Assembly: GCA_016212085.1 (NCBI GenBank)
Contig: JACRHL010000019.1
Span: 62,001-126,000, forward strand
Reading direction: 5' to 3'
DNA from: Nitrospirota bacterium
GTDB taxonomy: Bacteria; Nitrospirota; JACRHL01
Length of the DNA: 64,000 bases
Shown here: positions 29,314-31,717 of the stretch, piece after piece
Position numbering within the stretch: position 1 is the first letter of the stretch
Layout: the number at the start of each line of letters is the position of its first letter
Position numbers and translations under genes: made by a program
The notes under the pieces: generated by a model
Database searches by the model: none
What the model saw: the letters and a program-made list of their open reading frames with translations, nothing else
What the model was told of the DNA's origin: nothing

Positions 29314-31717
29314 GCCGTTCTCCCATATCGGCCATCAGCCGTTCGAATGCCGCCTCGTCCAGCACGGTCACGCCGAGCTGCTCCGCCCTGGTGAGCTTGG
29401 AGCCCGCATTGTCCCCCGCCACCACATAGTTCGTATTGGCGGACACGCTGCCCGCCGCCTTCGCCCCCAGGGCCTTCACCCGCGCCTCGAAATGGGGCCG
29501 GGGGGCCGACAGGGCGCCGGTGAACACGAAGGTGCGGCCCGCCAGGGGCGAGTCGCCCGTGGAAACGGGGGTGTCGCGCTCCATTTTGAGTTCCGCCGCC
29601 GCCAGCCGGTCAAGCAGGACCCTGTTGTGGGGGTCGCCGAAGAAATCCACCAGGGCCTTGGCCACGATGGGCCCCACGTCCGGGATGCCCACCAGCTCCG
29701 GCTCGTGGGCCTTGAGGAACGCGCGCACGGCCTTCAGCTCCGCCGCCGGGTCTGCGGCTACCTCGCCGAACAGCCCCGCCGGGGGGTTCAGGAATTCGGG
29801 CCGCCTCAGCCCGTCCGGCCAGCTTTCGGCGATGGCCCGCATGGCATCCCGGTCCGCCCAGACGCCCTCGCCCTTCTGCTTCATGCGCGCCGCCACCTCC
29901 GCCAGCATCAGCAGCGGCCTTGCCGCGCGGGCCGCTTCGCCCAAGGCGGCAAGGCTGCGAAAGCGCTCCGTCACCCCCTCCGCCGTGCGCGCCCCCACGT
30001 GGCGGATGCCGATGGCGAACAGCACCCGCTCGAAGGGGCGGGCCTTGCTGGCCGCCACGGCGTTCCGCAGATTCTCGGCGGATTTTTCCGCCATGCGCTC
30101 CAGGGCGGCCACCGCCGCGTAATCCAACTGATACAGGTCCGCCACGTCGCGCAGGGGGCGCGGACCGTCCCCGTCCCGCACCACCGGCGCCTTGAGCAGT
30201 TGCGCCACCAGGGCCTCGCCCAGGCCGTCGATGTCCATGGCGGTGCGGCTGGCGAAGTGCTCCACGGCCTTTTGCAGCTGGGCGGGACAGGCGCGGTTGA
30301 TGCAGCGGCTGGCCGCCTCGTCCGCCTCGCGCACCACGTGGCCGCCGCACTCGGGGCAGGACTGGGGCATGGCGAACGCGGGGCGGGAGGCGTGGGCGGC
30401 GTCGGGCGAAATCCGGACGACTTTAGGGATGATCTCGCCGCCCTTTTCGATCACCACCGTGTCACCAACGCGAATATCTTTTCTCTTTATTTCATCTTCA
30501 TTGTGAAGGGTCGCGTGAGAAACAATAGTTCCCGCTAGAGATGTTGGCTCCAAATCCGCCACCGGAGTCAATGTGCCGGTTCGGCCAACCTGAATACGAA
30601 TGCCAGTCAACCTTGACTGAGCCTGTTCCGCCGGGAACTTATATGCTACTGCCCATCTGGGCGCCTTGGCGGTGGAAGACAGTGCGGCCTGAACAGCAAA
30701 TGAGTCAATCTTAACAACAACACCATCAATATCGTAGTGAAGCGAACTACGTTTTTTCTCCCACTCCTTACACTTCAGGATGACGTCGCCGATGTCAGCA
30801 CTATTCTTTACATCCTCATAAATTGGGAACCCAAATTTTTTTAGCTGTGACAGCGCTTTCGACTGGAAAAGATACTTATCGCGAAACGCTTGAGATTCCA
30901 CCCCATAGATCCAGATCGACAGCTTTCGCTTCGCTACTTCTCTCGAATCAAGATTCCGTAAAGTTCCTGCCGCAGCGTTTCGCGGATTTGCAAACAAATC
31001 TAAACCCGAAATTTCCCTGTCTCTATTCAGGTTCCGAAAATTTTCCTTGCGGAAAAAACCTTCGCCACGAAGTTCTAGTAGGTCCGGGATTTCGTTACCG
31101 ATCAAATTGGAACCTGGCTCGACCACACCACTCATCAGCTCAAGTTGCTGATCAAAAGCGTTATCAAGGGTTAGGGGTAAGGAATGAATGGTCCGGATGT
31201 TGCGGGTCACGTCGTCACCGGTCCTGCCGTCGCCACGGGTGGCGGCCAGGGTCAGCTCGCCCTTGTCGTATGTGAGGGCGATGGCCACGCCGTCGATCTT
31301 GGGCTCCACCACGTAGCGCACGTCCGCATCGGCAAAGCCCGCCTCCGCCGCCCACTTGCGCACCCGCCCGTCCCACGCGCGCAGCTCGTCGTGGCTGTAG
31401 GTGTTGCCCAGGCTCATCAGGGGCACCCGGTGGGTGACGCTTGCAAAACCTTCCAGCGGCTGCCCTCCCACCCGCTGGGTGGGGGAGTTGGGAAAGGTAC
31501 CCTCCGGCCACAGGGCCTCCCACGCCTCCAGCTTCTTGAGCAGGACGTCGAATTCCAGGTCGCTGATGGTGGGCGCGGCGTCCACGTAGTAGCGCCGGTT
31601 GTGGGCCTCCACCTCCCGCTGGAGGGCCCGCACCTGCGCCAACGTGGGGCGCCCGGCGCCGTCAGCCGCCACGGCGGGCGCCGCCGGTTGGCGCGGTTCT
31701 GTATCTATCCTGGACAA
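29297..31717 (-). CDS. ligA: NAD-dependent DNA ligase LigA, mosaic gene
   Basis: 806 residues against about 670 usually. The Ia domain is N-terminal. The adenylation domain has catalytic K140 in EPKIDG and later [10 protein letters not shown]. Then come an OB fold, a four-Cys zinc finger (CPECGG and CINRAC), helix-hairpin-helix repeats and a C-terminal BRCT domain ([12 protein letters not shown]). It seals nicks using NAD. Extra length comes from an N-terminal extension and about 70 residues inserted between HhH motifs (near 29710-29935). The middle (about 30405-31200) is AT-rich in an otherwise GC-rich gene with an unbroken frame, which points to replacement by a foreign ligA fragment. The start is TTG inside a perfect palindrome (31712-31723), without a strong ribosome-binding site; the exact start is uncertain. 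Confidence 0.94.

Follow-up and report, generated by a model that had tools for sequence, protein, structure and literature searches.

A likely in-frame replacement of the middle of ligA by DNA of an AT-richer relative in a Nitrospirota bacterium

The DNA ligase gene ligA of a Nitrospirota bacterium (assembly GCA_016212085.1) joins two GC-rich ends to an AT-rich core, and we propose, as the most likely history, an in-frame exchange of the middle third of the gene for the corresponding stretch of an AT-richer relative. The gene was studied in a window of 64,000 bases, the whole stretch of DNA analysed here, which is part of the 334,683-base contig JACRHL010000019.1. We consider it probable that ligA is a real chimera, made by homologous replacement from an AT-richer, unsampled donor that branches close to the base of the host's own family. 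If so, about 240 residues of a replication enzyme present in single copy were exchanged, across a domain boundary, for a version that differs by about 45% from the family relatives, and the enzyme tolerated this.

An intact ligA gene with a sharply bounded AT-rich core

The reading frame of ligA is open throughout, and its product scores above the cut-offs of two curated LigA families (NF005932, 766 bits against a cut-off of 369; TIGR00575, 733 bits against 444) and carries the full LigA set of adenylation, OB, zinc-finger, HHH and BRCT domains as defined by Pfam. In its domains it thus matches these families, but it differs from them in having an internal segment of other base composition and a longer loop at the start of that segment. 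The loop exceeds by 17–22 residues its counterparts in our same-family comparison set, the loci L006, L005 and L004 of the three genomes G001, G002 and G003, as judged from the alignment for L005 and L006 and by reading the sequence for L004. The stretches EPKIDG, LELRGE, NPRN, DGVVVK and [10 protein letters not shown], which we take to hold the catalytic lysine and the later adenylation motifs, align with the corresponding stretches of PDB 2owo, presumably the E. coli LigA. No other gene carrying the PF01653 domain was found in the genome, in which the core DNA also occurs only once, with no second copy. From its sequence, the chimeric LigA is predicted to work as a normal NAD-dependent ligase, and we propose no new function for it.

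Across the gene, GC content in 300-base windows runs from 0.75 (30100–30399) down to 0.44 (30700–30999) and back to 0.69 (31200–31499). A two-changepoint fit on the third codon positions of ligA defines a core of about 730 bases (Table 1), with a gain of 86.7 log-likelihood units; the largest gain among 200 codon shuffles was 11.1. The shift involves all three codon positions, at which GC is 0.71/0.51/0.89 in the N end, 0.56/0.39/0.455 in the core and 0.745/0.50/0.90 in the C end. The core takes in the later part of the adenylation domain and, of the OB fold (amino acids 368–441 in Pfam), roughly the first two thirds. A first-pass annotation of this DNA had described an AT-rich stretch at 30405–31200, with different codon use and host-like ends, lying over the later adenylation motifs and the start of the OB fold in an unbroken frame with conserved motifs. 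The sliding-window GC and codon-position checks, the fitted edges, the Pfam boundaries and the alignment to 2owo bear out this description throughout.

At both edges, third positions switch between GC-rich and AT-rich over a few codons, and fits lying at most 3 log-likelihood units from the best confine the edges to short intervals (Table 1). The downstream edge falls at the 81st–94th percentile of local conservation (positions within amino acids 413–431), and the stretch adjoining the upstream edge at the 66th–78th (positions within amino acids 171–177). No repeats of at least 14 bases were found at the core edges; the sole direct repeat pair found (78%, at 30210 and 31275) lies outside the core.

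Table 1. Parts of ligA, with positions in the 64,000-base window
Feature	Position	Strand	Basis
ligA, NAD-dependent DNA ligase LigA, 806 amino acids	29297–31717	minus	
5' part of ligA: N-terminal domain and first adenylation motif (EPKIDG)	31190–31717	minus	Host-like composition, GC3 0.89; DNA identity to L004 0.719 over amino acids 25–176; PDB 2owo alignment
Upstream edge of the putatively replaced core (support interval), directly past moderately conserved [11 protein letters not shown]	31180–31201	minus	Changepoint interval; local conservation
AT-rich core, best fit of the putatively replaced segment, amino acids 177–418	30464–31189	minus	GC3 0.455 inside against 0.897 outside; gain 86.7; DNA identity to L004 0.562
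Downstream edge of the putatively replaced core (support interval), inside a conserved OB-fold stretch	30410–30473	minus	Changepoint interval; local conservation
3' part of ligA: rest of the OB fold, zinc finger, HHH, BRCT and stop codon	29297–30409	minus	Host-like composition, GC3 0.90; Pfam; DNA identity to L004 0.726 over amino acids 419–592

Excess divergence of the core in the window lineage

DNA identity between the window's ligA and L004 drops in the core alone (Table 1), and protein identity follows (N end 0.697, core 0.555, adjoining C part 0.691). Between L004 and L005, DNA identity is flat over the same three parts (0.702, 0.705 and 0.705), with protein identities of 0.684, 0.700 and 0.726. 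Taking the alignment columns on which L004, L005 and L006 are unanimous, the window departs from them at 19 of 107 in the core and at 9 of 177 in the ends (Fisher p 0.0008). Applied to each relative in turn, the test gives no core excess (p 0.21 for L004, 0.47 for L005 and 0.62 for L006), and the extra core divergence is therefore specific to the window lineage.

Core and ends were placed separately in trees. In careful trees of 30 LigA rows, chosen by the analyst from 131, both parts fall within the family, with a support of 99/99 for the core and 100/100 for the ends; a quick tree of all 131 rows gives 99 for the core. Inside the family, the core tree sets the window outside L004, L005 and L006 (94/88) and rejects its pairing with L004 (p 0.003) and with L005 (p 0.004). 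Pairing of the window with L006 is the topology that the ends favour (93/87), and the core does not reject it (p 0.119); a group of the window with L004 and L005 is rejected by neither part (p 0.18 for the core and 0.20 for the ends). The ends themselves pair the window with L004 in a quick tree of 130 rows (SH-aLRT 95) and with L006 in the careful tree of 30, in which the pairing with L004 has p 0.025. Positions inside the family thus show no significant conflict between core and ends, and we do not rest the argument on them. The first-pass annotation had named a shared phylogenetic position of core and ends as the observation that would speak against replacement by a foreign fragment; the two do share their position at the family level, and their finer positions are free of significant conflict. 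Where core and ends differ is in the depth of the window's branch, which is 0.49 in the core against 0.18 in the ends. The corresponding values are 0.34 and 0.17 for L004, 0.78 and 0.53 for L006, and 0.31 and 0.34 for L005, so that among the relatives only L004 and L006 have the longer core branch.

It is conceivable that nothing was transferred, and that the core evolved in place through a local AT shift and faster change, with relaxed selection, an overlapping signal or some mutational process confined to the region as the cause. The tree positions just described would fit such a history, as would the longer core branches of L004 and L006. Gradual descent should not, however, give bounded edges of composition, and here the edges are sharp to within a few codons, with all three codon positions shifted. 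The ligase motifs are kept, no Rfam family matches within 29000–32200 of the window, and no other ORF of the contig has an internal patch of this kind under the same criterion (0 of 175 pass a changepoint gain of 20 with a patch GC of at most 0.55). To our knowledge, no process gives a bounded AT shift of such size in an essential gene. We regard evolution in place as very improbable, and homologous replacement as the better account.

The donor appears to be a divergent member of the same family

The core protein was used as the query in a search for the donor among phylum genomes, viral contigs, phages, plasmids and species genomes. Matches were present in 315 of 395 phylum genomes, the best of them, at 57% identity, in the same family. 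The viral contigs gave 11 loci with up to 46% identity to the core. The 1060 phage records reached at best 52% among the matches listed (20 of 1060); the 215 plasmid records all stayed below 60%, with a best of 49% among the matches listed (20 of 215). In the species genomes, the best 80 loci reached 55%, in a set from which records near the window's own genome were possibly left out. None of the viral contigs, phages, plasmids or species-genome loci so compared came nearer to the core than the family does, and no AT-rich member of ligA's family was found among the relatives compared; the donor lineage is hypothetical. Some of the phage and plasmid records among the matches listed look, in the analyst's reading, like bacterial sequence and were set aside.

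Could the core have come from outside the family altogether, from a phage, a plasmid or a distant bacterium? Its grouping with the family would then be a long-branch artefact or reflect a host-derived remnant inside the core. LigA genes do exist in phages and plasmids, and the core is hardly closer to its own family (identity 0.52–0.56, with L006 at 0.523) than to the best outsider, L090 (0.518). Against such a donor stand the family grouping of the core in both the 30-row and the 131-row tree, the lack of a closer core among the matches listed from all the sets searched, and edges free of repeats. We think an outside donor improbable. Since core and ends fall in the same family clade, the donor looks like a divergent, AT-richer relative and not like something distant.

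The proposal in the first-pass annotation of homologous replacement by a foreign ligA fragment therefore holds in part. Replacement is the best explanation of the sharp edges, of a drop in identity confined to the core and of an excess of change specific to the lineage; a distant origin of the fragment is at odds with the family grouping of the core. The further suggestion of a phage or element that targets ligA finds no backing, as the edge repeats, the second genome copy and the closer core among viral contigs, phages and plasmids (matches listed) that were looked for did not appear. These searches argue against such an element, though an unsampled one is possible.

A model for the replacement, and the alternative of an assembly chimera

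We propose the following model for the origin of the chimera. An ancestor would have received DNA from an AT-richer, unsampled lineage close to the family's base, and the resident ligA segment may then have been replaced by recombination with a conserved stretch as anchor at either end. Selection on an essential gene would have kept a product that was in frame, homologous and working. Edges that lie in conserved stretches or just past them are what one would expect of recombination that took hold at the points of greatest likeness between donor and recipient. Natural transformation is a possible route of entry, given that the genome has genes for DprA and for ComEC; the latter lies at 56124–56978 of the window (plus strand), about 24 kb from ligA, with its competence domain in an 855-residue frame. 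Both families also occur in 10–11 of 14 control genomes, and their presence permits natural transformation without showing that it took place.

The main rival to this model is an assembly chimera, in which assembly or gap filling would have crossed, at one conserved motif, into the ligA of a co-occurring relative of higher AT content and returned at the following motif. Such homologous switches would preserve the frame just as recombination does, and the edges do lie in or beside conserved stretches. Two switches would be needed, however, no more than about 800 bases apart, in a contig of 334,683 bases that has no Ns and in a bin with 99.25% completeness and 0.15% contamination. The switch in third positions over a few codons would moreover make long exact words shared at both edges unlikely, a point that takes a hypothetical donor for granted. 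Exact runs of at least 14 bases in common with the three family members are absent around the upstream edge; around the downstream edge they measure 14, 23 and 14 bases. An assembly chimera is on this evidence unlikely, although we take it more seriously than the other two alternatives, and a real replacement remains our preferred reading.

Swaps within genes are a known kind of event in bacteria, of which the ligA chimera is a clear example. In PMC3212841, 678 of 5282 E. coli–Shigella gene sets are reported to have breakpoints within genes, and those laterally transferred mosaics share with the mosaic proposed here the edges inside the gene, the vertically inherited ends and the middle from a relative. 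The ligA case stands apart in that it concerns an essential replication gene, with a GC3 contrast of 0.45 against 0.90 and a divergence at the level of genera or deeper. Experimental precedents come from recombination between diverged DNAs: transformation in B. subtilis is reported to drop logarithmically as divergence rises to 15%, in work that reached about 23% (PMC6382021), transformation to leave numerous short mosaic segments (PMC13344027), and lambda Red to recombine genes that are 22% diverged (PMC2327257). Short donor segments between better-matching stretches are common to these systems and to the chimera proposed here. They differ in range, the divergence reported as tested there reaching about 23%, and the mechanism proposed for ligA is read from sequence. 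The core today differs by about 44% in DNA from L004, about twice the divergence reported as tested for such exchange in PMC6382021 and PMC2327257. Because this lies far beyond the tested range, the model assumes an older event, a closer donor or anchoring in conserved stretches. Among the titles listed by literature searches, none concerned a mosaic ligA of this kind, which is not proof of absence.

A bounded natural chimera of this sort would offer a test case for the limits of recombination between diverged DNA. It would also call for caution, as a single ligA tree or a gene-by-gene screen of composition would overlook it.

Internal patches in other ligA genes

How common are such mosaics? 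We scanned 236 LigA ORFs (234 with more than 400 aligned residues, among which are 232 distinct proteins) and 1398 other ORFs for internal low-GC patches at a threshold gain of 20. Six LigA ORFs passed, and the window's gene, L027 and L010 were retained; L234, L065 and L007 were rejected, the segment flagged in each being upstream of its LigA homology. A smaller first scan, of 136 LigA and 513 other ORFs, had yielded the same three genes. Two of the other 235 LigA ORFs thus have an AT-rich internal patch, in both cases smaller than the window's, and the first-pass annotation was fair in calling such mosaics uncommon, though they are not unique.

The foreign-looking patch in L010 (its amino acids 373–425, about 407–462 in the window's numbering) is 0.609 identical to the congener L011 and 0.603 to L012, against 0.82–0.85 in the flanks, and the two congeners are 0.88 identical to each other in this region. 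L010 is confirmed by these two congeners as a second, independent and better-anchored ligA patch. In L027, the patch (its amino acids 91–174) has a GC3 of 0.30 against 0.71 elsewhere, and identity to a congener is lowered over part of its length.

Among the control ORFs outside the window's contig, none of 1223 passed a gain of 20, one exceeded 15 and six exceeded 12. The one above 15 is a non-ligA ORF of 237 codons at L176:682–1392 (minus strand), with a gain of 19.6 and a GC of 0.25 inside the patch and 0.52 outside. Two of 235 LigA ORFs against none of 1223 controls gives p 0.026; a length-matched comparison, with the 240 controls that have 500 codons or more, gives p 0.24, and for this reason we claim no hot spot in ligA. 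There are hints that breakpoints cluster, in that one end of each patch falls close to an edge of the window's core: the start of the L010 patch (window amino acid 407) to the downstream edge and the end of the L027 patch (near window amino acid 170) to the upstream edge. One may speculate that AT-richer homologues repeatedly replace parts of ligA, and that the breakpoints favour two conserved stretches, TGDDVTxNxRT and the OB-fold stretch from LHNxDEI to GGEIIP, but we rate this as unlikely.

AT-rich islands and flagged ORFs elsewhere on the contig

A scan of the whole contig for 400-base windows below 0.56 GC identified eight AT-rich islands, namely the ligA core, three that each correspond to a whole AT-rich gene, and four milder ones with a mean GC of 0.54–0.59. 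On the gain of 20 alone, 10 of the contig's 175 other ORFs pass, all with a patch GC above 0.55, and we take these for wrongly framed ORFs. Five contig ORFs had gains above that of ligA in an earlier scan; their low-GC3 parts reach the end of the ORF, or come within a few codons of it, where there is no AT-rich island, and were read as over-extended starts.

The three AT-rich genes lie both inside and outside the window. The one inside, at 1620–4001 on the plus strand, in an island with a GC of about 0.48, encodes a 793-residue AAA_13 ATPase whose best PADLOC match is PDC-S06 (2.7e-83), and is probably a recently acquired defence gene. Outside the window, L162:7165–8001 (plus strand) encodes 278 residues with no Pfam match, and L156:10877–11590 (minus strand) encodes 237 residues with a weak match to AbiGi, a putative abortive-infection antitoxin (5e-06).
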